NCBI RefSeq assembly: GCF_964204645.1
Contig: NC_134031.1
Coordinates: 15,373,307 to 15,437,306, forward strand
Direction of reading: 5' to 3'
DNA length: 64,000 nt
Origin: Tubulanus polymorphus
Lineage: Eukaryota > Nemertea > Palaeonemertea > Tubulaniformes > Tubulanidae
The notes below the pieces were generated by a model. That model did no database searches, was not told where the DNA came from, and worked only from the letters and a program-made list of their open reading frames with translations. Both the position numbers and the translations under genes were made by a program. Shown one piece after another: positions 3,927-62,228 of this stretch (position 1 is its first letter; every line of letters starts with the position of its first letter).

Positions 3927-5551
3927 GTCAAGACACCAGTTTACTTATTCAGTATCAACGATTGGTCATTGGTAACTCCCACCACTTTCACAAACCAAAT
4001 CTACCAGAAATTTACTTGATAAAATTATCATATATATATTTATTTATTATCGGTATGTATATATATATATATTTATATATATTATTGTTAGATATATACA
4101 GTCATCATTCGCATTATCTTATCTAATCTTAACATCACATAATTATGTTTTTTTTCCTCTATTTCGAAACAATATTTAATGACTTATAAATGCATTAAAC
4201 CATGCACATGATTACTGCGGGAAAACGATATAGAAATCAGGAAATAACGCGAAAAAAAAAGACGAGCTACGGGCTCTGCTTTGAATTCCTATACTACTTG
4301 TAATCAAAGTTTGATAATATGACCCAAATTAGTTATGCCAAGCCAGTACAAAGGCTTTATTTACCTCATAAACCTACAATCGGTCTACATAGGCATGTAT
4401 TGAATATATTTCATATCGTGGCACCTGAATAGATGCTATTTCCTGTTGTTATTGTAAAAAAACAATCGGCCCTTATAAAGAAATTTCTCGCCATATCACT
4501 TCCATATCTGTGTACGAAGTAAAAATGAAATAAAGTCTGATTTTCAACGTAAACTCGTAAAAGTGAAGAATCGTTGTGCAGGTAATAATATACAACCATT
4601 GATTGATTATAAAATACACAATTCATAATAAAATAAACGAGATAATTACATACGTATTAGTGATCACAAGAACGAAAAAGAGCAAAATATCAGTGCCCAC
4701 AGTAACTCCTCCATAATATTATCAGCTCGATAACATCAAAACATACCGGTACTACGTATCTTGTTTTTCTTTGGTGCGATGTTATCAAATAGTTCATTTC
4801 CGATGTCAAACTTTTACCCGAGAACTACGAAACTCCTAGACTACGCATCATAGTCACATAAAAACCACTTCCATAACTGATTGCACTACCTCAGATTTTA
4901 CCGGTCTATCTATTTACATACAAAGCTAATTTACCCGAAGCCATTTAACAACATAAACTGGCATAATAGAAGAGTTGAATTACTCCCGAGGTTATCCGCT
5001 AAATGACCAGTGAAACTGACCTCATTACGCAACTCTAACCGGTCAGTTCGACCACCGACCATTCTCTGTTGGTAACTACCGTTCTGGGGCCAAGTTCAAA
5101 AGTTGGTTAGAATGGATAGTTGACATGGTGAAAATTTAAAGTCTATTTTTGCTACGGTATTTATCCACCGGTTGTCTTTGAGCAACTGGCCCCTGGATAC
5201 TCTATAGATATCGAATATATTTACACATCGAACTAAGCCTACCCTAAGATTCTACATTTTTGGAATGATTTTTTTTGCCATTTGAAAATCTCGAGAACGA
5301 AACCGACAAAATATGGACTCCCGACATTTCGTCCGCAGCCAGGCTGTTCTCGGATCAGGTACCGAATACAATGCATGCTAATTACTAATACACTATAAGA
5401 ATAATGGTTTGTTTGGATTTTCTTTTACACTTAAGTATTGTATGTTATGACTAGTTAGTTCAGATAACACAACCATAATCACGATCAAACTCGCTTATAT
5501 CATCATCAGATAATAAGTCGTCGAAGTCATTAAGTCATCTATTTATTTTCA

Positions 5552-5680
5552 GGGCCCAGTTTCACGAAAAAGTGTAAGCTTAAAACGGTTAAGTTTGAAT
5601 TTTTGCCACATGAAGTAACCAATGGCAATTACATGTTCACCAAAAATTTGAGTTTTAACTTTTTTGTGAAACTGAGCCCA
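5552..5680. mobile_element. Short palindromic MITE, GGGCCCAGTT family
   Basis: About 129 bp, starting GGGCCCAGTTTCACGAAAAA and ending with its approximate inverse (TTTTTGTGAAACTGAGCCC). The ends match a family of short imperfect palindromes found many times in this window. Confidence 0.6.
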
Positions 5681-5719
5681 GTAGCAATTCATAGCACACC
5701 AGCACACCAGATGGCGCAA

Positions 5720-5852
<133 letters not shown>

Positions 5853-6420
5853 AAATGAGTGTACGGCATAGTTTTACTGAAAAGAAAAAAGATTTGCCGC
5901 AGAGAGTTGATTCGAATTTGATTGAAATGTAGAAGAAATAAGAGCGCGGTAACCGAGCAACCACTAGAGAACTTGGTGGATCCTCACCTGCCATAAATGG
6001 AATCCTCGATTGCCACAGAAGTGGTGCCGGTACCCTGTTTACTACAAGTATAAGTCATCGGTCGATTAAGTCATCCACGATACGATCAGACCTACGATGA
6101 CTTAAGCGAGTTTGACCGCGGTACATAATAAACACGACGCAGGTAGATTCCATGTAGATGATACGTTTCGCCAGACCAATCGATTCCTTACTAAACCGCG
6201 CGCGTAATAATGTCATCTGTCGAGATTCTTTTTTTGGGATCCGATGAATTTTTTCCGTGTAAGTTCTGCGACGGGGCAACTCGCGCACTGAATTTAACCG
6301 GTACCAACTATCTCTGAACAGGGTAGTAGGGTTTTTCTGTCAGGAGTTGTCGCTGCTTTTTTCTATCACGACATCCGCGAAGTCTCTTCATTACGTATAT
6401 CGCCCTGCTGTCTGTAACTG

Positions 6421-15994: not shown

Positions 15995-16934
15995 CGGCAT
16001 ATTAATTTGAATAATTCGCGTTCTTTTTTGTCGATACAAAGTGCACGTACTTTTCTGCATTTAGGGGACGTTAATTATGTAGTTAATGTAGCTAGGACTG
16101 CGGCATACCGACAATGAACAGAACTTCGATTGAACTTCGATCATTAGTAATTCAAAAACAACAGCTGTTGCTGGTGATATGTATATGTATTTATATAGAA
16201 AGAAAATGAAAATACTTGCTTCTTATGGTTTACGATACACTTATACTGGAAATCATCAGACTCCTCGGAGAAACCTGTTTCCCTACCGGTATGCACAGTG
16301 ATTTGCAAGTTTTTTGTATTGTATTTTTGAAAGCTACGTCTTGAAGTACTTGGTAAGATAGACACTAGAGCTGTAGCTGATATCTCGGGAGAGCCGAGCT
16401 GGGCAGAAAAGCTGCAGTATCAGTATGACCATCGGTTTACTATGTCACTGGAAATATGAATGAAGTTCATGTGATTTATTTTGACAATAAGAAAATACCC
16501 GATCAGGACTTCAGTGGTACTAGCGAAATAAAGGATTTTTGGTAGAATGTTCACGGTCTTGTAACTGCTATCTAAGGTGTTGTTGCGAATAAAGCATTCT
16601 ACAACAACCATGTCACCAAGCGTAACCGGCTGATCACTAGCCATAGCCTTTGGCCACCACGATCACAATCATCACTGGATCTTTTACACTACGGACCTCC
16701 AAGCATATTGAGTTCCCAGGTTTGAAATCGGGAAAGTTCGGTTGTCGGGCATTTCTTTTTTCAATTAGGTGAAATAGCGTTGGAATTTAATCAATGGACC
16801 CTTCCTGGTGCAAACTCACGCATTAACTTGCTTTTACAGATGGGACCTCATGAATAGTATTTAGAGCTTAATACGATACCTAACTGTATATTGCATATAC
16901 ATATATTAACTAATCCTTTACTGCACATGTTACC

Positions 16935-17104
<170 letters not shown>

Positions 17105-17272
17105 CTTATAATGCGGGTAAAAAATCTGCCGATCTTCTGATATGTATATTGCCTGTATCTGTGATGTGAAACCTCGGTTTGTTTAGTAAAATAACATTCT
17201 TGGTGTTTAAACACAGAGAACGGCGAAGCTGCACTCTCACAAGAACTGGATCGACTGACACGAGAAAAGGTC

Positions 17273-20200
17273 ATGTCTGCTTCGCTCGAAAACATCCGAC
17301 TATCGAGTAGTTTAGAAGATCTTAAAAGTTTGCAATTTTATCAAGCGCTGTTGGCCGAATTTTTCGGCACGATGCTATTTCTGGTAGTTGGAGTGACCTC
17401 GACGTTAACCTGGCCCGGAGCGCCAGCTCCCGTAACGCCGGGCATAGCAGCGGCTTTCGGACTCGGACTGGGCACTGTTGTTTGGATTACGGCCGGAAAA
17501 AGCGGAGGCCACATCAACCCGGCCGTTACTCTGGGGATGTTAGTTGCGAGGAAAATCAGCGCAATTAGGTAACACTTGTGAATTTAATAGTTGAATTTAA
17601 TTAATGATGTCCAATATTTTCCGAATAAAAAAGATATGATCAGAATTTTGATTGCGTAGGCACCAAGCTTTTAGCCATGTAAAACCTGATAAGTATAGTA
17701 AGATAAAAACCCACTATCTACAAATTAAAAGAATTTAAAAACAAGAAATATATTTATTCGAACAATCTAAAATATATAAAATACACGACGTTTCGATCTC
17801 ACTCTAGAGATCATCGTCAGATGTAGGGTGAGATCGAAACGTCGTGTATTTTTTTATATTTCAGATTGTTCGAATAAATAAATTTCTTGTTTTTGAATTC
17901 TTTTAATTTGTAGATAGTGGGTTTTTTTTTAAATCTTATTATCCGTTCACCACGTTTGAGTGTGGTTGGTTATCGTTCTCTGATAAGTGTAGATTTGTGA
18001 GAAATCGAACCGTACCTGACACCATGACTTTTTTCTATTCTTTATCGGGAAAACCCTGTGCGCATAATTATGATCGTAATGCGATACATTGTATAATATG
18101 CTCAACTTCCTCAGCTTCGTTTTCATATGATGGTATCGACATTTGCAAATCGCTAGTACCATCTCGGTTGCACGGCACAATTAGTCCTCGAGCAGCAATC
18201 ATAAAATGTAGAGCAAAATTAACTTATATATTGGAAATGACGAATGTTTTTTTTTCTATTCAAGGTTTTTCTTGTACTTGGTTGCTCAGTGTTGTGGTGC
18301 TATTGTGGGAGCTCTTTTGGTCAAGGGTGTAACCCCTACAAGTGTTGGTGGAAGCTTCGGCGCCACAGTCGTATCAAAGGTCTCTAAACTACGAAGTCTT
18401 TTTGTATTTCTTTCTTTATTATGATATTTTGGATCAAAATTCATTAAAGATACCGAAATATTATACTCAAGGGCCCTACATGTATTTTCGTTACATCTTC
18501 AGGGCCGGCAAGGGGGCAGTTCCTCCCATTAATTTTGGAAAAGTGCGCTTTTTTGCGAATATCCTATATATGTTATATCCTATAGAACTGCCCTTTTACG
18601 GGTTTCTCTGCCCCCCCCCTAAAATTCAAATGTTAGGTACGGCCCTGATCTTTCGTAAATTTTTTTTTAAGGATCTTCAATCGTGGCAAGGATTGATTGT
18701 TGAACTGGTGTTAACCGTGGTGCTTGTAACGACGGTATTCGCGTCGACTGATAACGCCAGGAAGGATCTGAGCGGTTCGGGACCGTTGGCGATCGGCATT
18801 TCATTATTCGTTTGCGTAATCGGCGGGGTACGTGCACAATGTAGTGTCGTTGAAACAGATTTCAAGTTGATATCAATTTTTCATCTCCTCTCGTATCGTA
18901 TCCGTTCTATAAAATATGCATCGTGTACAATAACTCGATATATTGAAGATACAAACAGCCCGTTTACCAGCACAATCGCATGGTATTGTTTGTAATCTGC
19001 TAAGAGTTCCTACTCGTTAGAATTGATAAATTAACTGTAAAATATAAAGATTATTAAATAGATAATGAACTTTGTGCTGTTCACTCACAGCACGAAAAAT
19101 CTCCGTTTCAGCCAGTACTTCCTTTTCATACGTACGTTACTCCCAGTGGTTTTTCTATGTTGGTTATCAGGTTATCCGGATTTGCGATATGAAATCTCAG
19201 GGGTGGGATTTAGGGAGTGGTCTCAGGGGTACCGTACGGACCCCTGCCTTCCCATTGAAATTGCCCTTTTCGTCATGACAACAATTGTTAAAGCCTGCAA
19301 ATTCGAAACTCATCGTTTCGCGGGAAAATTGCCCATTTTCGGATATATTTCTTAGACATGGCTACTTTAACTGAAAAACGCCTTTTCTTTTCTTCTGGGC
19401 CCCAGCTTCCCAAAGTTCCTAGATCCGCCCCCGCATCTTAACGATATCTTTTACCATCATTTACGAGTCTCAAGTTACAGACCAACTCATGTAACAAGTT
19501 GGCCCCTTTAGCCTGTTGATCCATCATATTGTTTATTGGATTTCATAGTTTCCCTGTATATTCTAGTACTTAGGCTAAGAATCAATATATATATACCTTA
19601 TTTCTCGTTTCTGCTGAGCTTAGAGTTGACTCGGCCAGCCGCCTAATACCCTGGGGCCGGTTTTATAGATAGGTATTAACTTCAAACCGGGGGCTAACTC
19701 AATTAATTTTCTCTCATCACTCTTTAAAATCTTGATCAAGCTAACTGAAACCGACCCGGTAGCTAAAGCAATGAACTTTTAGTAATATTTTTTTCCACAC
19801 CAACTCAATGCGTAAACTCCAAAGCAAGCATCACGTACATCAATTTACCGCATTTTTCGACCATCGATTTTACCTTTGCTTTTCCGTTTCTAGCCGTGAA
19901 ACATCTCCTCACATACTTTTTCCACGTGAATCCATATTTCATGGATCATAAAAAGCTGCGTTGAAATATCCAATAATTGTTTACCGGGAATACTCGAAAA
20001 ACCACTAGTAACTAGCGTTTTGACGGGTAATTTGTGTTATGTCGTCAATTCAGGTAAACTAAACATCGATTTTTTTTCTCAAACTTGCGTGTCTAGGCGT
20101 CATACACAGGGCCAAGTCTGAATCCGGCTAGGACTCTTGGGTCGGCTGTTGCGGGAAACGTTTGGAAAACACATTGGGTAAGGATCAAATTCCTCGGCGG

Positions 20201-21779: not shown

Positions 21780-24700
21780 CTACACAAGTGTCGGAGGTAC
21801 AACTTCCACCAAGCCATTCAATCGTTTTAAACCGTTCAGTCTTTCGGTTGTTGACGTATCCAATTGTCTGTCGTCTTTCCCTTTCAGCCAGTACGTCATA
21901 ACACTATTCTTCCCCTGAAGAAAAAAACGCGAGGCCTTGGCTAGTATTGCTAATCGTGATTAGATAGAAAGATAAAGCAGAAAAAATATACCAAGGTTTC
22001 ACTCTTTATCACAAATAAATTAGACATACTGGTACGGTGTTAGTAAGAGTAATTCTTTTGTGACAACGTTCGCTAATGAAACGTTTGGTACCTCGTTAAT
22101 GGTACATACACAATACATCACCAATAATGAGGCAATAGATCCGTTCGTCCTCGTATCAATTTTCAAACAAAAGGGAATCACGGAATTACCGCCTTTTTGT
22201 TTGAAAGCACATTCATTTGGGCTCTATTGATTCCACGGAACAATACATGTTTTTGCGGTTTCGATTCGTCATTTCTTTTAAAGAGTGGAATCGTTTTAAA
22301 AGTCTGTATTAACTGTGTGGTTACTTTTATTCAAAATAAAAACTCAATGGCATGTGTGTGCTAATTTTCATGTTGCATCGCGGTGCGCAATTGATTGGGA
22401 ACGAAAAATCAGTGTCAGAGGCCGAAGCGATGTAGATGATCCATAAAGAAAAATTGATCATACCTTCAAGAAAACCTCTCCTCTCGGTTCGAACATATAG
22501 CGTCCGATGTTGCAGAGAATTCTGTGCACGGTTTCGGACACTTGGATACAGTTCGTCTGCGACGTGTACATCAGTGTCAAGGCCGTATTCACCGTGTCGC
22601 CGAACACGCAGAAGTTGCCGGTGCAAGTTTCGCCGAGCATACCGGTCACCACAGCACCGCAGTGAAATCCGCAACGAAAGCTAACCGGCGCGGAAGACAA
22701 CGGCGAATCACCGGTCGGTAGTTTGTAGTTGAGGCACGCGTCGACGAGTTCCAGAATAAGGCAAGCGATTCGATTCACGTGCTTTTTACCGATACGTTTC
22801 GTCAGCCCGGACATGCAGACGACCGTGTCGCCGAACATCTGCAGCTGATAGATGTCCGGCTTTTTCTTCACGATATCGTTTAGTGTTTGGAATAGATTCG
22901 ACAACACGGTCAGCGTTTCGTGACATTTCGACGGGTCGTTCATCACAGAAGTTAGATTGTTTAATTCGAGCGCCATAACGGCTACTGATCGGTGTTCCTG
23001 CGGATCGACGGCAAACCCGTCAGTGATCCGTTTCACGATATCTCGCGGCAGTGAATTACAGAACATCCTTTGTATGCTCATTTTGCTAGCTTCGATTTCT
23101 GTCGTTTTCTCTTCGACTTTATCCTCTAATAACGACGTGTACAATTCCATCTCTTCCATCATTGAATCGAGCATGTTCTTTTTCGTGGGGTTCGCGTGTT
23201 TGATCATTTTCGCCATTTGGTCGAAGCTCGGACGTGTCGCGGGATCGTCCGCCCAAGCTATCTCCATCAGTTGTTTGACCTGTATCGGTGTATCGTCATC
23301 GGGTTCGGGTCGTAGGTTATTGTTCACGATTGCTTTTAGTACGTCATCGGCGTTCATCGTATCGGCGTGTTCGATATACGGATCATTCCTGCTGAATATC
23401 TCGTATAGGATTATCCCGAAACTATACACGTCAAGCGACGACAAAGGCACGATGTCATAACCAGCTCGTATCGCCTCAGGAGCCGTCCAGAATTCGCGAA
23501 ACGCAGCTTCGTGTTTTCCAATATCATCGGCGGACGCTCGTATCGCCAATAGAGGGCTCCGTTTTCGTTTCGATTTTATGGTCGAGTATATTTGTACGTA
23601 TTCCCAATCGGCAACTCGCACGGTCCAATGGGAATCGACCAGACAACAGGCCGACTTTAGATTTCCGTGCACGATATTGTGTCCGTGCAAGAATGCCATG
23701 CCCATCACGATATCGGACGTTAACGAAAACTTTATGTCTAGGTTTAAATTGAACTTTTCATCTCGTAGGATTTCTAGAATTTGTCCCTTCGAACAGTAAT
23801 CACTGACGACGTAATGGTCGTTTTCGATTTTGGCCAGTCCGTAGAATCGCAGCACGTTCATGTGATTTATCGAATCGCGCATGTTCAATAACAGTCGTTT
23901 CGTCGCCGTCTGCATCGGTTCAAGGTCGGATAGTTCGATTAGCCGAAATCCAATCGTGTAACTCTTCCATTTGCCCGGCCATTGTAAAACCTCGCGGATC
24001 TTTTCGGTGCTGCATTCGACCATTTCTTGAAAGCTCTCCGAATCGCCGATGGAACTGAACGATTTAAGAGATTTTCCCGAACGGCTGCCCATCTTACGCA
24101 CCGTCGGCGAATAGTAGAACAGCACCTCTTCGATGGGTATGTCCCATTCGTTACTGTTTATCATCTTCCAAACTTTGTAGCGCTGAAACACGATATAGCC
24201 GACCAGGCTGAATATGACGACGAACGTCAGCGGGATGAACACGGCTACCGGGATGACCCACGTTTCGGCTACGTAATCTTCTTCTTCCTTTTGCGTTAAC
24301 ATAAGCCGATAAACGTTTTCCCCGCGGCACGAAATATTCTTGAGAATCTTTTGTATGATTCTTTCCGCGATACGAGGACTCATCGCCGTCATGTTGTGAG
24401 CGATGCAAACATCTTTGGCGACGTCGTCCACCAGGAACCATTCGATGAATCTGACCAGTTCGGTGATTATCTCGCAGGCGTCGTAGCCTTTTTTATGAAT
24501 GAGGAAGTACGTATAGCTGGATATCGGATACGAGTGAGCTCCCGGTGGGTCGACTATATACACGTTTAGGTTACTATCGAAATCGTCCATGAAATCGTCC
24601 ATAGCATTCTGTACCTCGGTCGGGCCGCTTTCAATGAAGTTTCCCGCCTTGTTACCGATGGCGGCCGTGCTTATGCCGGCCTCTTTTGCGTCCGATGGCG

Positions 24701-27700
24701 ACAGATACCCGATCGTGTACCTGATTGACATCAGTATACCGGAAACTCCGCGCGTCCGATGTCCGTATTGGTATATGACGCGTTTCTCCCAGTGTATCGG
24801 CTCCCACGTCGTTTCGTTCAGTCCTTGCGAGAACGAACCTTTCGTCCGCTTCCACGCCTGGCTAAACGAACCCAGCGCTCGCGTGAAGGTCGATGTCGTG
24901 CCGGACTTATCGGCGCGAACGACGACCAAAATCTTCTCGTCGGGCAACGTGAAATTCGGATTCGTTCGCTGTAACGACGCGTGGTTCCAGTTCAAAATAG
25001 TCCCGTTGAATATTCCGACTATTTGATCGCGATTCAAGCGTAATTTTTGGCCCTTCGGAATTCCTGGCAAGTTGTATCCCAAAACGATGGCTCTGAAAAA
25101 GACGGAAAGATCGTTTTTAAGGGTTATTGAGAAGATATTTCGCGCGTCATCGCCGACAGCCGCACGAGAATGACTTTACAATACCAATTACGACGTGTTA
25201 AAACTGAAAACCGCACAAAAGCTATGAAAAAGTGAAGCAGGTGCCTTTGTAACGATCGTATGTTTTACATTTATTTTTTTAATCGGAACAAAAGGTGATT
25301 CGCCACGTTCAGTAAACGCTGAAACAACCATCGATCACCATACTAACGCCGTTACGTTGAATTTTATAGGATTTCGCAACGACGCGCCAGCTAATTAATT
25401 ATGCCGGTTTCATACACCGGCAACTGTGTTCATTCAATAATCGACGTACGCTCTAACGCCAGAGTAGGTAACGCTGCTGAAAAACACTGCATTAAACTAT
25501 ATGATTTACGCAGTTGGAACGATATAAATAAAATGTCCAACTGTGTCGTTTCACCTGCTTACATATAAGTCAAAATGAATTGGACAATAGCTATAGTGTA
25601 CAGATGTTATTGATCCGAGAACTTGAAAGACGGACTCAATATTTCTAAGAGGATTTTATTGCATTGTATTAAATTAGGTCCATGGTTTTATTGACAAACG
25701 GTGTGTATAATGAACATTGAATTTTTTTCGAATTTAGAATCTAAACGAAGTTGAAACGATTTTATCAGCGGCTTTGCTCGATCGAAAAGTTCGTCGATGT
25801 TTAAAGCTGTCTACCTATTTATGGTTGTATTTCTGACCCGTACCGACTGCTGTCTCATTAGAGAATGTGGCCTTCGCCCGGCGCAGTTCTGGCTCATATC
25901 GGTGTGTACTGAAATATATCCCCCTTACGACGATGCTTATTGGAAACACGAGAAACGTGTTGTTTGCGAAAAGTGATCTATCACTAATAGGCTGGATAAA
26001 ACACGTCATGTTGTCAGCAGGGGTGGCACAATTTCCACTATTTCCACTGCCTTTCAAGTGCCGCGTCGTCAGTGCTTTTCATCTGCAAAAAAGTGATATT
26101 AATAGAATGTCCTTTGACATCCCGTTGTTTTTTTTCAAGTATTTTTTCACAGTTTTTAGCCGATTGTATTTTACAGCGAAATAAAAATGATTGCACGCGT
26201 GCGTGAAGGCGAGCATCAATCGGCGAGGGATGACTTGCAACAGCAGACGGTCTCATTCGATGAAATTAAGTAGTTCTTAGATCAGCGAATGACAAGAAAA
26301 TATAATACCCCTCATTATCAGTATAGTTTTCCAAGTTCAACGTAGTTGAGGTTTAGTCTAAGCCTGATGAATTATAGAGACAGGACCTGCGGGTTTGCAA
26401 TCTAATTCCATCGTCAGTTAATACGGGAATTATGGTTACTTTGCTGAGACAAATTTATCTTTAAGGATTACACTGATTTTAAACATTTCTTGCTGGGTAG
26501 TCATGTAATGGCTTCTCCAACTGCCTCGTTTCACATCTAGGGGCCAGTTTCTTTTGGCGTTTTCCTGCGTAAGCCTTTAAAATCTATAAAACAGGCCCTG
26601 GGGCTGGTTTCGCTAATCAGACGACAACAATCTTTCCATTTTCCAAGAATGAGAGAGCATATAAAGCCATCAACTTAGATAATCAAAGTATAAATCGTTA
26701 TTTCCGCGCATGAGTCATATTTTCGAACTTATCGATCGGATCAGGCTATTAACGGTCGAAAATGAATTCAATTGATTTAACTCGAAACAGTGGCGGGAAT
26801 TGCAGACACCGAAATCTACGTATACCATTCGCATACGCGATCATAAAAAGAGAACTAATCTAAACCAGGTAAACCGAAATACGTCAAATGCATGCAACTA
26901 GCAATTAGTTCGTTCGCTCGATTTGTGCTAATGATTGATGGATGGAAATCACCCCACATACACACGTATACTCACTACATACGAACGGTAATACATAGAA
27001 TATTTGAATTATTCATTAGGCCCATATAATAATATATTTCAATACTATGACGATGACTAATAAATTAGTATCGCGCATGTCATTCGGCAGATTTTTAGCC
27101 TGAATACGGAGTTGTTATATCACCGCCGCATCAGTCGGCGCCGCTTTACTAATTATAACGTTGTTGGTTAAACTCACTCAAACGCCGGAACTTTGCTTGT
27201 TGAACGAGTCGTATTACGCATAAACAGCGGAATCAAACCGATGGAATTAATAACGTCAATTTCGACTAATTGATTTTTCGAGAGAGAGAGAGCGAGAGTT
27301 TGTCTGCCCCAGCCCTATACCGAACTGGGCGTTAAGAGTTTAATTTTTTTGTGTTTGCTGTGCAATTGAGAAGTTGTGGAAATGAATGATTAATTCTGAA
27401 TTGCGACGGTGAACAATTTCCAGCCATCGCCTGCATGATGGCCCAAGTTCAAGTTCAAGTTTGAATTTATTTCATGGAAAGCATATGAAAGGCTCTATAC
27501 AGAGAATAAAGGAAAGACAAAACAAACAGCAATAAAATTTACCATTTGTCCAACAAGCGCAATTATAAAAAGAAGCCGAGAAAGGAAAGTAGCTATCTGT
27601 GTGGGCCAAGTAAAGCCTTAAGGGGCCGCAGCCTTCCTCATCCCTGTAAGTATCAAAGTCGTAACAACAGGTTCCTAACCCGGGCCTTGAGAGTTAGCCT

Positions 27701-29069
27701 TCTCCGGGTGAAGTACTCGAGAAGTGTTGGAATGAATGATTATGTCACGAAGGTGAATTTCTTTTTTAATAGAATGCATGACGTTATTCAACAAAGAATA
27801 GGCCTAATGATATTGAAGGTTTGCTTACTAGGGATAATGCATTTAGATTGATAGCAACAGAGTTATAGGCTGGGGGTAATAATACCAAATTGGCGCGCAT
27901 CTGAACCCACTCAGGTTAGGATCCCGCGCTATATAAATGTCAATCATTATTATTATTATATGATAGCAACACCGAAAGGATGATTGTAAACATAAGGTCA
28001 TGTACATTATTGACATTTAGATACACAGTAAGATTAAGAGAACACGAGAAAACTAGAGTTCAAAACCAAGAAAACGACGGTGAGCGAGTTTCGGCGATAC
28101 GTTCCGGAAATTAGTTGCCTGAACAGGTAAAGAAATTGTACGACTGACTGTTGATCCCGGTGCGTCTTCAAATCGATACAGAGCTACAGGAATCATGAAG
28201 TAAAAACCAATAGTTGATATAGAGAGTTTAGTTTCCATCAGTTTCGGGGTTTATCTAAACCCCCATCAGAAAGTAGAACGATAGACTTTTTATACCAACT
28301 GTAAGACTTTACTTGTTAACTCTAGGTCATACGGATCAGAAACTTTGTAACACAACAAATCATTCGAGTGAAAATCCAACGAGTTCGGATGGGTAATCCG
28401 TATAGATGAAATCGTTAACGACAAACTCCAGGGAACCGGGCCCACACCCCAGATTATCGCCACAAGACAAGACCATTTACGTGTTGATACCGGTTTAGAT
28501 TCGAGCCCAATTTTAAAACTCTAGATTAACGAAGAACTGAACCAAACAAGTCACAACACCACTACAGGCAACACAATTACGAGAGAAATCCCACAATAAA
28601 TTCAGTTAAAAACGAAAAGCTCTGTATTAAAATGATTATATTTCGAGCAACGTTTCCGCTAAATGCCATTAGCCATCATCAGGCGTACTGATGGAAAATT
28701 CACCTTTATTGGCGGTCATGCTATTATGGAGTACGATACTTACCCTGCCATAGCCGGTATCTCTAGAATTTCAGATTTCTCAGCTAGATTCCTGTCATCC
28801 AGTCCGTTGTCGGACCCGGCAAAATCGACCTTAGAAGCTCGAATATCTCTGACGCCTGCCGACGATCCTTTAACTGTGTAACTCATGAGCAGGTCGATGT
28901 GCTTACTGCGATACAACTTGTATTGTTCGATCCAGGAACTGTAAACCTCGGCCGGGAACGAAGCCCCGGAACCCGCGATGGACACGACCGGTCTAGTTTC
29001 CGGCAATACTCGGCAAGGAAATAAAGATAGAAAAACAATAAGTCCGGTAGTTACCGATGCGTTCCTCAT
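21780..29069 (-). CDS. Receptor guanylyl cyclase-like protein with PstS phosphate-binding ectodomain (3 exons)
   Basis: Exons on minus: 29069-28744, 25092-22464, 21914-21780; phases match, giving 1029 residues. An in-frame TGA lies two codons before the ATG. Residues 1-24 are a signal peptide; about 28-365 match bacterial PstS from GSGASFPAEVYSSW through RADKSGT to a YTYFLIHK segment. The PstS phosphate ligands are kept: Ser37, Phe38, Ser69, Asp87, Arg168, Ser172-Gly173-Thr174. One membrane span is at about 387-410. A kinase-homology domain follows with HGNLKS (Asn586 where kinases have Asp), as in natriuretic-peptide receptors, then FWTAPE and DVYSFGIIL, a coiled-coil linker (about 750-785) and a class III cyclase domain (about 810-1000) with FGDTVNTA. 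The last exon supplies GKNSVMTYWLKG. Key cyclase residues differ: metal Asp to Glu818, guanine Glu to Gln860, catalytic Arg to Thr948; Asp864, Cys937 and Asn944 remain. Domain calls are secure; phosphate binding is inferred. Confidence 0.92.
25093..28743. other. Intron 1 of the receptor cyclase gene
   Basis: A 3.65-kb intron that splits the PstS-type domain after residue 109 (a Gly codon split 2+1). Donor GTAAGT and acceptor TTTTTCAG are strong. It contains a retroposon-like repeat at 27440-27962 and otherwise AT-rich DNA without recognisable exons. Confidence 0.7.
27440..27962. mobile_element. Retroposon-like repeat (SINE or LINE 3' end)
   Basis: Opens near TTCAAGTTCAAGTTTGAATT and closes with CCCGCGCTATATAAATGTCA followed by (ATT)n, the kind of short-repeat tail seen at the 3' end of non-LTR retroposons. 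No reverse transcriptase remains. The left boundary is uncertain. Confidence 0.45.
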
Positions 29070-30589
29070 AGCTCATATTAATCGCGTCGCTACGTTTGAA
29101 CGAGAACACGAACGACATGGAAATGCCGGCGGTGGCGGCGGTGCTTGGTTTTGCGAGTGAAATTTCGTGACATCGAAAAGCATTGCGCGTATCTAGTGGT
29201 GTCACATGTTATTCAAATCGGGTATACGCGAAATTATCATTCTGATAAACGGGGACACTTAATCACGCATTAAGCTCTAAACTTCACCATAATCGTCGTG
29301 TAAATTACGAAATTCTAAAATGCAGCAAATCCGGTCTGCCTGGTTGCGGTGTGTATAATCGACACGCGTCGACCAGTAAACGGAGTAACTACTGGCCGAT
29401 GCACACTCAATATTATACGATATATTCTGCCGCTTGTTAATTGAAATTCTCGCCAAACCTACCCGAACACGTTCGCCACAACTTATGCGTGCGTTTTTCG
29501 TATTTATCCTCCAGATTTACGCGTACTCGTCACATCATTATTAGATCCCGCTCGCTTGTACCGATTGTAACGAGCATCTCTTATACACTCGAGCCACCGA
29601 TCGTGGTATCGACGGACTAACAGTGATAAGGGTAACGCGAAACATTACGCAATACGTTTTTCCAACGCTGTCCCTTTCGTCTTTACAACGAACATCCATA
29701 TGTTTCATGCGTGACATTTTTCATATTCCTAGTTGTTCTACGTCACTGAAACATGCGTTCCACGCGAAGCAGCTGTACAATCAGAAAATCAATCGCCGAT
29801 AAATATCCACGGTCGCGATTCAATGATTACTATCAAAACGTACGTATACAAAATAGAATTTCCTTTCGAAAATCAGGCAGCTGGCGACTAAATTTCAGTT
29901 GAAAATTGGTCGACTATTTAAACCGGTAATTGGAAATCCGACGACCTATCATACAATATACAAAATTAGATTCGGAAATGAAACGTATATGCAGCAAAAT
30001 TAAATCGTAAATACGAACTGTTACACGCTGTGTATATGAAAATTACATCGAGATTTTCAACCGCTGTTTTGTCGAACGGTTTGTCAATAATTCCAAGTGA
30101 AATTTCTTTATTTTTTTTTTAGAATCATTTTTTCATCACTGAACAAAGCGTAGATTTGAATGCAATTCGCGTTATAGCATGACGGAAAATTGAGTTTATG
30201 GCGCGCGTTTGTTTGCGCTACTCTTCAGAAAATGATTGGCAGCAATATTGATGCAGTAGCGGAAAATGAGATTTCAATTTTCACGCGAGTTTTATGCAGT
30301 TAAAAAAAATGTTATATTCTCCATTACTTACATTAACACGGAATTCATCGTGCGAGTCAGATTTTTCTTTTTTTTCTAGTGGTAAAATCTCGTCCATGTT
30401 TCGACACTTTTGGAATGAAATAAAGATATCACGTAAGAATAGGAATTTGATTTATTTGTCATTCTATGTTCTAGATGCGCTCTTACAAAAGCATAACGAT
30501 AATACAATTTTTTGTTTGAGATATATGTGAGAATGTGAGCCGAGGGATTTAGACTAGAGTAATAATTGTCATTTATCCGAACAAGAGTC

Positions 30590-42445: not shown

Positions 42446-45082
<2,637 letters not shown>

Positions 45083-50695: not shown

Positions 50696-51619
50696 ATTTA
50701 TCAGAGACGTATTTGAGGTCTTATGTTTATAGGTCTTAGGTTTAGTATATTATATATAGGTGTCACTAAACCTAAGACCCATAAACCTAAGACCCGACTC
50801 TAAATCATTATTTGTGTACTTTATTTTTTTATTTTTTTATTTTTTTACTATTCGAAATGGTTCTAATATATAGATATTAGTTAAAATGATCCATCGATGG
50901 CCTATTAAAATTTGGTTCATTTATCAGAGACGAGATATTTGGGGGTCTTAGGTTTATGGGTCTTAGGTTTAGTATATCATATATAGGTGTCACTAAACCT
51001 TAGACCCCCTAAACATAAGACCTAACGGGTCTTAGGTCTTAGGTTTAGGGGGTCTTAGGTTTAGTGACACCCGCTCGACCAAAGGCGATAGCAATATCTA
51101 ATATCCGAGGGCATGTATCGTCCAGGATCCAGTTCCACAGTTCTGAGAAGATTTTACTCAACTCACAACTGTGGCCTGGACGATATATGATATCCTGAGG
51201 AGATGTGTATTTTCATGAAAAATGAACTTCAAACTCCAGACATGCCCATACAAAAACTAGTCGTTAAGACGTCACATTGAAATGTCCAGGGGTCTGAAAG
51301 CAATGGATTCGGGGCAGGGGAATGATAATACGCAGGAGCTCTTTTCAGGTCTTATACGATATCTGAAATAATTCGTAAAAAACATGTATTGATCGTTAAT
51401 CAACACAGGTAAAGCAGTCAGTTCGTTCAGAATGCCCTGAAGGCAAAGAACGATTATCTATACCAGACGGTAAAATTAATATTGCGATCGAATTTGCAAT
51501 ATTTTAATCACTGAAATTGATTCAATATATTTCGAAATTTTCTACGCTCGTAATCTTTCTGTTCTTGTATTTGCAATAGATAACGATCTATACGTAGTTT
51601 ATCAGACGGCGCATCAGAC

Positions 51620-52594
51620 ATGAACCACACCCAACAACTAGTCCCGCGGGCCGTGACTCCTCGCTTCACCGTCGGCTTCTACGCTCTGCGCGTACAAGCG
51701 TCTTCGCAGATAGACGGAAATGTTTACTTTTACTTGTATTGTAGCTTGAATTTTGTGAGTCTGTGTCTCGGATTTATCGGCAATATCTTTATCGTTTGCG
51801 TCATGTTGACGGAGCGTCTGCGGCGACGATCTTACAGTCGTTTCTTCTTTTGCCTCGCGCTGTCCGACACGGTTATTCTAGCCTATCAACTATGTATCTT
51901 CTTAAACGTAGTCAGCTATTACTTTTTCGGAATCGGAATCATTCCCCTAAACGGTTACATATCCTGTTGTTTCTACGAGTACACGGTAACGACGTGTACT
52001 TTCAGTCCGTACGTTCTCGTGATCATCTCAACAGAAAGACTGAGCGTAATTCATTTCCCGTTCACCGCTAAACGATTCTGGACGCTGAAACATAATTCAG
52101 TTTGGATGATAGGGCTGCTCTTTGTCATATGTTCGCTGTATAGTTTTGTCTGGTGGGAGATCGCTTACGTCAGAGATATGGGATGTATATTCACGTCACC
52201 AATCGTGTATTCGTATTACATGTCAATCGGACCGGCCATCACGGCATTCATTCCAACCTTTATTCTGATGCTCACCACGAGCGCTATAATCATTTCATTG
52301 CGCACCAATAAAATCAAAACCCTCAAATCTTCATCGGCCTCGAAACAAGCGACCGTTATGATTTTGGCGACTTCGATATTTTTTCTCATTACCATATGCC
52401 CGCTGTGTACGATAGCCGTACTAATGACGCTCCATTCCGGGGACAGTTTCAACGAATCGTTCAATGTACCGTACAAAATAGCTAGCACCCTGTTCAGTCT
52501 GAATTACTCCGCCAATTTCTATATCTATCTATTAACCGGGAAAGAAGTTCGTGATTCCGCAAAGCAGCTTATTTGCTGCACGAAAAGTCGGTGA
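51620..52594 (+). CDS. Intronless class A (rhodopsin-like) G-protein-coupled receptor
   Basis: A single open frame of 324 codons with seven hydrophobic spans, probably a peptide receptor of the FMRFamide-receptor-like type; the ligand is unknown. Helix 1 has GFIGNIF, helix 2 LALSD, and helix 3 ends STERL where DRY is usual. Helix 6 shows ITICPLCT, without a CWxP motif. Helix 7 reads SANFYIYLLTGKEVR, a form of NPxxY seen in peptide receptors, with a short tail ending in ICCTKSR that could be palmitoylated. An N-glycosylation site (NHT) is near the N-terminus. The start was taken as the first ATG of the frame. A MITE (52694-52898) follows closely. A fragment encoding its last helix is repeated at about 58990-59345. 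Confidence 0.85.
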   Translation: MNHTQQLVPRAVTPRFTVGFYALRVQASSQIDGNVYFYLYCSLNFVSLCLGFIGNIFIVCVMLTERLRRRSYSRFFFCLALSDTVILAYQLCIFLNVVSYYFFGIGIIPLNGYISCCFYEYTVTTCTFSPYVLVIISTERLSVIHFPFTAKRFWTLKHNSVWMIGLLFVICSLYSFVWWEIAYVRDMGCIFTSPIVYSYYMSIGPAITAFIPTFILMLTTSAIIISLRTNKIKTLKSSSASKQATVMILATSIFFLITICPLCTIAVLMTLHSGDSFNESFNVPYKIASTLFSLNYSANFYIYLLTGKEVRDSAKQLICCTKSR

Positions 52595-53436: not shown

Positions 53437-55273
<1,837 letters not shown>

Positions 55274-57239: not shown

Positions 57240-58128
57240 AGTGTTCGGGAAATGAAAAGTTTACCGAAAAAGAAATGGATGAAAAACAGATAAACTTTCA
57301 ACAATTAATTGATGATGATGTAGAACTATCGAACAATGAATGTCCTTATTTGGAGCTATTCCAGTGTGCATCTAGATATATGAAACATCGAACAGAATTT
57401 GTCTAGTATATACATGAACCTATGGTGGCTGATAAGGGCCATAGCGTAAAATTCCTGGTATGTAAATGAGGGCGCCAGAACGCCAGAACGCCAAAACGAA
57501 AAAAAACGTCCAATTTTCTCTTGGCGCGCCAAAACGAACTTTTAGAGAAATTTCGACGTTTTTCGTTGTTTTGGCGGGGGCGCCAAAACGAAAGTTCGTT
57601 TTGGCGGGGGCGCCAAAATGAAAGTTCGTTTTGGCGGGGGCGCCAAAACGGAATTTTCTTTGTTTTGGCGCGCCAAAACGAACTTTTAGAGACATTTCGA
57701 CGTTTTTCGTTGTTTTGGCGGGGGCGCCAAAACGAAAGTTCGTTTTGGCGGGGGCGCCAAAATGAAAGTTCGTTTTGGCGGGGGCGCCAAAACGGAATTT
57801 TCTTTGTTTTGGCGCGCCAAAACGAACTTTTAGAGAAATTTCGACGTTTTTCGTTGTTTTGGCGGGGGCGCCAAAATGAAAGTTCGTTTTGGCGGGGGCG
57901 CCAAAACGGAATTTTCTTTGTTTTGGCGCGCCAAAACGAACTTTCAGAGAAAATTGGACGTTTTTTTTCGTTTTGGCGTTCTGGCGTTCTGGCGCCCTCA
58001 TTTACATACCAGGAATTTTACGCTATGGCCCTTATCAGCCACCATATGAACCAGTAGATCAGTTTCAAGATCAAAATGTAGAATTTGACGCAATTTTACT
58101 TTGTGAAACTATTGATAAAATCACATAA
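57240..58128 (+). pseudogene. Possible decayed reading frame split by a transposon insertion
   Basis: A frame rich in acidic residues (KEMDEKQINFQQLIDDDVEL, NNECPYLELFQC) runs to a TAG at 57404-57406. The element 57421-58045 follows, and beyond it the same frame continues (EPVDQFQDQNVEFDAILLCE) to TAA at about 58128. Removing the insert and one copy of its ATGAACC duplication leaves one frame with a single internal stop. I do not recognise the protein; it may be a transposase or gene relic, or chance. Confidence 0.25.
57421..58045. mobile_element. Transposon with TATGGTGGCTGAT termini and TTTTGGCGCGCCAAAA minisatellite
   Basis: Inverted ends of about 80 bp begin ATGGTGGCTGATAAGGGCC and include GGCGCCAGAACGCCAGAACG. 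ATGAACC flanks both sides (57414-57420 and 58046-58052), a 7-bp target duplication. The interior repeats GTTTTGGCGGGGGCGCC and GTTTTGGCGCGCCAAAACG at spacings of 114-144 bp. Long open frames (up to 193 codons) on both strands merely translate this repeat. Ends match the element at 35473-35928. Confidence 0.85.

Positions 58129-60353: not shown

Positions 60354-62228
<1,875 letters not shown>

Follow-up and report, generated by a model that had tools for sequence, protein, structure and literature searches.

The window analysed here is a stretch of 64,000 nucleotides from the nemertean Tubulanus polymorphus (GCF_964204645.1, contig NC_134031.1, positions 15,373,307 to 15,437,306 of the forward strand). 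It contains a minus-strand gene, at 21780..29069, whose product combines a PstS-type, putatively phosphate-binding ectodomain with the membrane helix, kinase-homology domain and cyclase domain of a receptor guanylyl cyclase (RGC). Its features, from the start codon onwards, are the following (residue numbers are those of the present model, except for the two cysteines, which follow NCBI protein P0002).

28744..29069, minus strand: exon 1 (coding), residues 1-109, with the signal peptide MRNASVTTGLIVFLSLFPCRVLPE and the first third of the PstS domain; Ser37, Phe38, Ser69 and Asp87 are located here, and the GT donor lies at 28743
29009..29054, minus strand: 46-nt stretch, an intron in the NCBI model; in the present model it encodes the signal peptide's hydrophobic core
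25093..28743, minus strand: intron 1, 3651 nt, interrupting the PstS domain between AMAG and AIVLGYN
22464..25092, minus strand: exon 2, 2629 nt, with the remaining PstS domain (Arg168, Asp170, Ser172-Gly173-Thr174, and Cys316 and Cys365 in P0002 numbering) and, downstream, the membrane helix (about 385-411), the kinase-homology domain, the coiled coil and most of the cyclase domain
21915..22463, minus strand: intron 2, 549 nt, close to the end of the cyclase domain, between EVFLK and GKNS
21780..21914, minus strand: exon 3, with the last part of the cyclase domain and the C-terminal tail; stop codon at 21782..21780

The three-exon, phase-consistent gene proposed in the initial annotation was recovered from the genomic sequence with the same coordinates and joints. 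All joints are of the GT-AG type: GCAGG/GTAAGT at the donor of exon 1 (29069..28744), TTTTTCAG/AGCC and AAG/GTATGA at the acceptor and donor of exon 2 (25092..22464), and TTCAG/GGGAAG at the acceptor of exon 3 (21914). Once joined, the exons encode 1029 amino acids with zero internal stops. The NCBI protein, P0002 (listed as 'retinal guanylyl cyclase 2-like'), has both joints in common with this model and is 100% identical over 98%. It differs at its start, placed at 29118, with the 46 nt from 29054 to 29009 spliced out, so that the hydrophobic stretch of the signal peptide is lost. We judged the signal peptide by a hydrophobicity scale and by comparison with relatives. The Kyte-Doolittle mean over 11 residues is 2.3 for the N-terminus first proposed, versus 0.5 for that of NCBI, and a hydrophobic stretch is also present at the N-terminus of the relatives from Lineus (2.0) and Haliotis (2.2). 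Because its stretch is strongly hydrophobic, like that of these relatives, the N-terminus with a signal peptide appears more plausible than the NCBI start. A pseudogene is ruled out by the 1029 codons without a stop and by the intact relatives, and when four members of the family described below were compared with the window by tblastn, this gene was the sole match.

The exons were scanned separately with Pfam. The first joint divides PBP_like_2 (PF12849) into two non-overlapping parts, profile positions 10-90 in exon 1 (E 1.3e-7) and 94-265 in exon 2 (E 7.3e-18). Profile, alignment and structure comparison agree in placing the ectodomain in the PstS family, with a PstS fold. PF01094 (ANF receptor) was not detected in either exon at E up to 1, nor is it in the precomputed domain list of P0002; this domain content rules out an ordinary natriuretic-peptide or retinal receptor, as the database names would have it. 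The nine ligand residues of E. coli PstS, which we take to be T10, F11, S38, D56, R135, D137, S139, G140 and T141, align with Tubulanus Ser37, Phe38, Ser69, Asp87, Arg168, Asp170, Ser172, Gly173 and Thr174, respectively. All nine positions are kept, with Ser replacing Thr at the first; every ligand residue named at the outset was found again, and Asp170 is added to them. Further downstream, Pfam detects PK_Tyr_Ser-Thr (E 2.3e-34), followed by Guanylate_cyc (E 1.2e-23). The succession of ectodomain, membrane helix, kinase-homology domain, coiled coil and cyclase fold is that of RGCs, according to Pfam, the predicted model and an alignment with GC-A that spans exon-2 residues 295-873. The single membrane helix, also part of the original proposal, was placed only by eye (385-411) and from the predicted model, which has a long helix at 370-422.

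This architecture is not a single oddity. Two full-length searches of 5.8 billion proteins yielded 19 members and then 7 more, making at least 26 proteins of this build in spiralian animals and metagenome sources. Eighteen of the 26 come from named sources in three phyla: Nemertea (Tubulanus, and two genes of Lineus longissimus), Mollusca (Haliotis, with two types in three species, Patella, Gigantopelta, four scallops, Octopus and the chiton Liolophura) and Annelida (two from Paralvinella, one from Owenia). The other eight are metagenome proteins. Two members were counted by alignment: P0048, a fragment without a precomputed PstS call, and P0013, without a precomputed cyclase call. Members are called ordinary receptor cyclases in the databases (retinal, natriuretic peptide, speract, GC-E, gcy-29-like), except that NCBI has the three annelid ones as hypothetical or unnamed and that those from metagenomes are nameless but for one JGI label. 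No second Tubulanus protein was found among the matches of either full-length search, the second of which scored only the 7993 candidates with the most shared words. At the protein level, three of the eight metagenome ORFs (P0010, P0013 and P0020) start at the first joint with what appears to be a translated acceptor, R/A[IV], and four of the eight (P0010, P0018, P0046 and P0047) run on into Val at the second joint, as a GT donor would give. Both intron positions thus look like family traits.

The whole pocket is visible in 16 of the 26 members. With Ser and Thr scored as equal at the first position, all nine positions are kept in 11 of these 16, across nemerteans, gastropods, scallops and Owenia. 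The equivalents of E. coli Arg135, Ser139 and Gly140 are retained in all 26 members, and of the 17 rows that cover the position of Asp87 (E. coli Asp56), 14 have Asp there and the other 3 have Glu. The pocket deviates in five complete members: P0008, P0011 (Octopus), P0017 and P0045 (Paralvinella) and P0042 (chiton). Only three members with a canonical cyclase (see below) have the whole pocket visible, and among them only Owenia keeps all nine positions. Since 5 of 16 pockets deviate and the canonical members have a whole pocket only in Owenia (1 of 3), different lineages may have different ligands. In other flytrap families, receptor ectodomains have often switched ligand, and the deviating pockets, those of Octopus and Paralvinella included, would fit a domain that serves as a flytrap for something else (another oxyanion, a phosphorylated metabolite or nucleotide, a phosphonate) or as a protein-interaction module. 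Against this reading, which we consider unlikely, Tubulanus and other complete members (11 of 16 in all, from nemerteans, gastropods, scallops and Owenia) preserve every one of the nine positions, and the Asp87 position is Asp or Glu in each row that covers it. The ligand is much more likely to be phosphate or a close oxyanion, and the sensor function proposed initially stays the best guess, supported by nine pocket positions out of nine.

To describe the cyclase domain, we followed seven positions, with the heat-stable enterotoxin receptor GC-C (P0024) as the reference: metal Asp, guanine Glu, metal Asp, guanine Cys, Asn, Arg and Lys, to which we assign roles in metal binding, guanine selection and catalysis on general knowledge. 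Tubulanus reads E-Q-D-C-N-T-K. Four of the seven positions are kept (the second metal Asp864, Cys937, Asn944 and the late Lys) and three are changed (Asp to Glu, Glu to Gln and Arg to Thr), so the complete catalytic set of a guanylyl cyclase is absent. The kinase-homology and cyclase domains of the initial annotation stand as Pfam domains, and the latter as a cyclase fold, but the catalytic residues are not intact. In the same way its label of receptor cyclase suits the RGC-type body, but it had missed the degeneration, and a working cyclase is doubtful. Because the set is incomplete, the protein is best classed, on its residues, as an RGC-derived receptor and not as an active RGC.

In the whole family, with gaps scored as departures, the cyclase is degenerate in 19 of the 26 members, canonical in 6 and truncated in 1 (P0048, with 3 of 3 visible positions kept). 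Degenerate members keep 0 to 4 of the seven positions, i.e. depart at 3 to 7. All seven are kept in Lineus P0014, Paralvinella P0017 and P0045, Owenia P0044 and metagenome P0018 and P0047, so that Lineus has both kinds. We then compared the conservation of the two intracellular domains in 19 pairs, which share members and are hence non-independent. In 10 of the 11 degenerate pairs (the exception is P0015/P0016), conservation is lower in the cyclase than in the kinase-homology domain, with 40% versus 60% for Tubulanus and Lineus. The constraint is reversed in canonical pairs, where the cyclase is the more conserved domain in 6 of 6 (64% versus 33% for Lineus and Owenia), and in the two mixed pairs both domains are about equal (30% versus 31%). 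A tree built without cyclase columns, i.e. on PstS and kinase-homology domains, makes Tubulanus and Lineus P0003 sisters at 100/100, and on it the canonical or degenerate label needs 2 changes (bootstrap range 1-3; long branches meet at the outgroup). The simplest reading is that catalysis was given up in the Tubulanus branch, and that selection continued to act on ligand binding and on the kinase-homology domain.

Cyclase activity is therefore, with high probability, strongly reduced or absent. The replacement of Asp by Glu at one metal site is a mild change. As the second metal Asp, the Cys, the Asn and the Lys are also kept, some residual activity is possible. A phosphate-gated guanylyl cyclase that still works, as a homodimer making cGMP (or cAMP) in spite of Glu for Asp and Thr for Arg, would agree with these four residues, with the good confidence of the predicted structure in the cyclase region and with the six relatives of the same build that keep 7 of 7. 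Three catalytic or base-selecting positions are changed in Tubulanus, however, the cyclase is the faster-changing part in its branch, and most of the family departs at three or more positions; we hold this alternative to be somewhat less probable still than that of another ligand.

To place the PstS domain, a tree was made of 91 rows: 43 of 120 listed matches (175 found), 9 further rows taken as prokaryotic, the 26 rows of the family, and 13 more, which come from 11 comparison proteins labelled eukaryote. Only three of the latter have names, P0023 (ANDGO prefix), P0025 (Endogone) and P0038 (Batrachochytrium); the other eight were labelled by their partner domains (class C 7TM, MHYT, ANF receptor, kinase-homology start), P0034 and P0037 by similarity. 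The prokaryotic rows, which are matches to animal queries and do not include E. coli PstS itself, fall on one side of a single branch (SH-aLRT 99); in this tree Tubulanus is not joined with Lineus P0003. After removal of 27 of the 91 rows for redundancy, length or long branches, 26 eukaryote and 38 prokaryotic rows are split at 100/100 with one change, 15 receptor-cyclase rows group at 100/99, and Tubulanus and Lineus P0003 join at 83/81. All 26 family rows have the pair Cys316/Cys365, as do 10 of the 13 other eukaryote-labelled rows and 0 of 52 prokaryotic rows; the second Cys occurs alone in 1 of these 52, and the second position is gapped in 33 of them. Among eukaryote-labelled rows the pair is missing in P0023, P0025 and the half-domain P0037, which has the second Cys without the first. 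Finally, a GTDB scan with one protein and six peptide patterns, which detects close relatives only, gave one match, a Chloroflexales protein with 31% identity over residues 2-155.

These data suggest that the PstS domain is part of a eukaryote receptor-PstS group, whose members are found on 7TM, cyclase and other outputs as well. In view of the 100/100 split, the Cys pair and the single GTDB match at 31% identity, it does not look like a recent bacterial transfer into the worm. PstS is typically bacterial, but a recent pstS transfer, a contamination or a mis-joined gene model is highly improbable given the two introns at positions recurring in other members, the same build in 26 proteins (18 named, three phyla) and the ordinary animal genes present in the window; the recurring introns, the PstS trees and the GTDB scan together led us to reject contamination or recent transfer.

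The reading that we favour, as reasonably probable, is a phosphate-binding single-pass receptor whose own cGMP production is most likely small or nil and which acts through a partner or through its pseudokinase. The PstS flytrap would capture extracellular inorganic phosphate (or a close oxyanion), and its closure would alter the receptor dimer. We infer that the membrane helix would pass this change on to the kinase-homology domain and the coiled coil. With catalytic residues missing from its cyclase domain, the Tubulanus product would make little or no cGMP alone. Its output could be that of a partner or a brake of an active cyclase, either of the canonical sister type, as in Lineus, or another receptor cyclase; or it could signal to effectors through the conserved kinase-homology domain.

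The family is probably an unrecognised type of phosphate sensor. A bolder reading, to which we give an even chance, is that of an unrecognised family of eukaryote extracellular phosphate receptors, in which an old PstS flytrap, mostly marked by the Cys pair, was set on varied outputs, and in which one nemertean and mollusc branch went on without catalysis, signalling through the pseudokinase or in partnership with an active sister. The outputs concerned would be receptor-cyclase bodies in spiralians, class C 7TM domains in fungi and protists, and a bare cyclase in a jakobid.

Extracellular phosphate sensing in animals is described as poorly understood; the candidates in mammals are PiT2, FGFR1c and the calcium-sensing receptor (PMC8199323). 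To our knowledge, a receptor whose PstS pocket is intact would be the first protein of animals to have a flytrap dedicated to phosphate for an ectodomain, and a single purified domain makes the question testable. A receptor family in which constraint has moved from the cyclase to the pseudokinase would also be a natural experiment on the kinase-homology domain alone.

Among known systems, the closest in build are the RGCs of the GC-A/NPR1 type, which share the signal peptide, an ectodomain, one membrane helix, the pseudokinase, the coiled coil and the class III cyclase fold; by sequence, the best PDB match is GC-A, which also ranks first with Foldseek. Their ectodomain is an ANF-receptor domain (PF01094), which is usual in RGCs, though not universal, whereas that of Tubulanus is a PstS-type flytrap, and the catalytic residues are degenerate in Tubulanus and 18 other members of the present family. 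Compared to bacterial PstS (E. coli 2abh/1ixh), the Tubulanus version is the ectodomain of a single-pass membrane receptor, and it has the Cys316/Cys365 pair, absent as a pair from all 52 prokaryotic PstS domains. The DING proteins, with the human phosphate-binding protein (2v3q), match it structurally less well than classical PstS does. They begin with DINGGG; Tubulanus has SIAGSGASFP instead, which rules out membership, and its gene sits in an animal genome, with introns. The DING dispute is touched nevertheless: phosphate-binding proteins are reported from eukaryote tissues and their genes are missing from genomes, and the genes described here are genuine animal ones with a PstS fold, without being DING genes.

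Protein P0023 (ANDGO_00956, 'Phosphate-binding protein PstS'), presumably from the jakobid Andalucia godoyi given its prefix, shares the PstS and class III cyclase domains, with a membrane helix between them by eye, but has no kinase-homology domain listed and no Cys pair. Endogone P0025 and Batrachochytrium P0038 lie on the eukaryote side of the tree, outside the 38 prokaryotic rows. A PBP_like_2 domain is reported on a fungal class C receptor (PMC3251606), and such domains are also reported on Plasmodiophora 7TM proteins, which were read as transporters (PMC4815078). These proteins share a PstS-type ectodomain on a eukaryote membrane protein, but their output is a class C 7TM domain. No described PstS-type receptor cyclase was found in the open-licence full-text literature, among the matches listed, in line with the initial claim that no animal receptor of this build had been described, and the word 'periplasmic' is absent from the parts consulted of a survey of the guanylyl cyclase family (PMC1435932). 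What appears to be new is the PstS-type ectodomain on a receptor-cyclase-derived body; receptor cyclases, on the one hand, and PBP_like_2 7TM proteins, on the other, were already known.

Besides the receptor gene, the window carries the following protein-coding features and repeats:

988-1659, + strand, exon of a TPR-repeat protein (Pfam TPR_2, E 3e-16)
5534-5983, long TA-type simple repeat
16930-17337, long TA-type simple repeat
43910-45079, + strand, tubulin ORF (Pfam Tubulin and Tubulin_C)
51584-52591, + strand, rhodopsin-family 7TM receptor in a single ORF (Pfam 7tm_1, E 2.6e-12; Srw, E 7.7e-11)
53440-54570, - strand, tubulin ORF (Pfam Tubulin and Tubulin_C)
57521-57978, tandem array with periods of 30, 114 and 144 bases
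60357-61526, - strand, tubulin ORF (Pfam Tubulin and Tubulin_C)

The translations of the three tubulin ORFs, judged by eye to be of the beta type, are nearly identical to each other; these ORFs are duplicates, clustered locally and in mixed orientation. The units of the tandem array resemble TTTTGGCG...CGCCAAAA and leave several frames open on both strands, the one frame scanned having no Pfam family match. Both TA-type repeats translate as Ile-Tyr runs, and the ORFs found there are spurious.

Two PstS domains in tandem were found in each of P0021 and P0022, comparison proteins from 'ena' sources labelled eukaryote in the PstS-domain tree. They are followed in P0021 by what reads by eye as a membrane helix and the start of a kinase-homology domain, and in P0022 by the start of an ANF-receptor domain.

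At the N-terminus of the Tubulanus receptor, the core of the signal peptide (29009-29054) is treated as a 46-nt intron in the NCBI gene model, which is likely an annotation error. In P0003, one of two family members from Lineus longissimus, the signal peptide is followed by GINGGGASFP. This recalls the DINGGG signature of DING proteins, a likeness that is probably a coincidence, on the GxGASFP motif of PstS.
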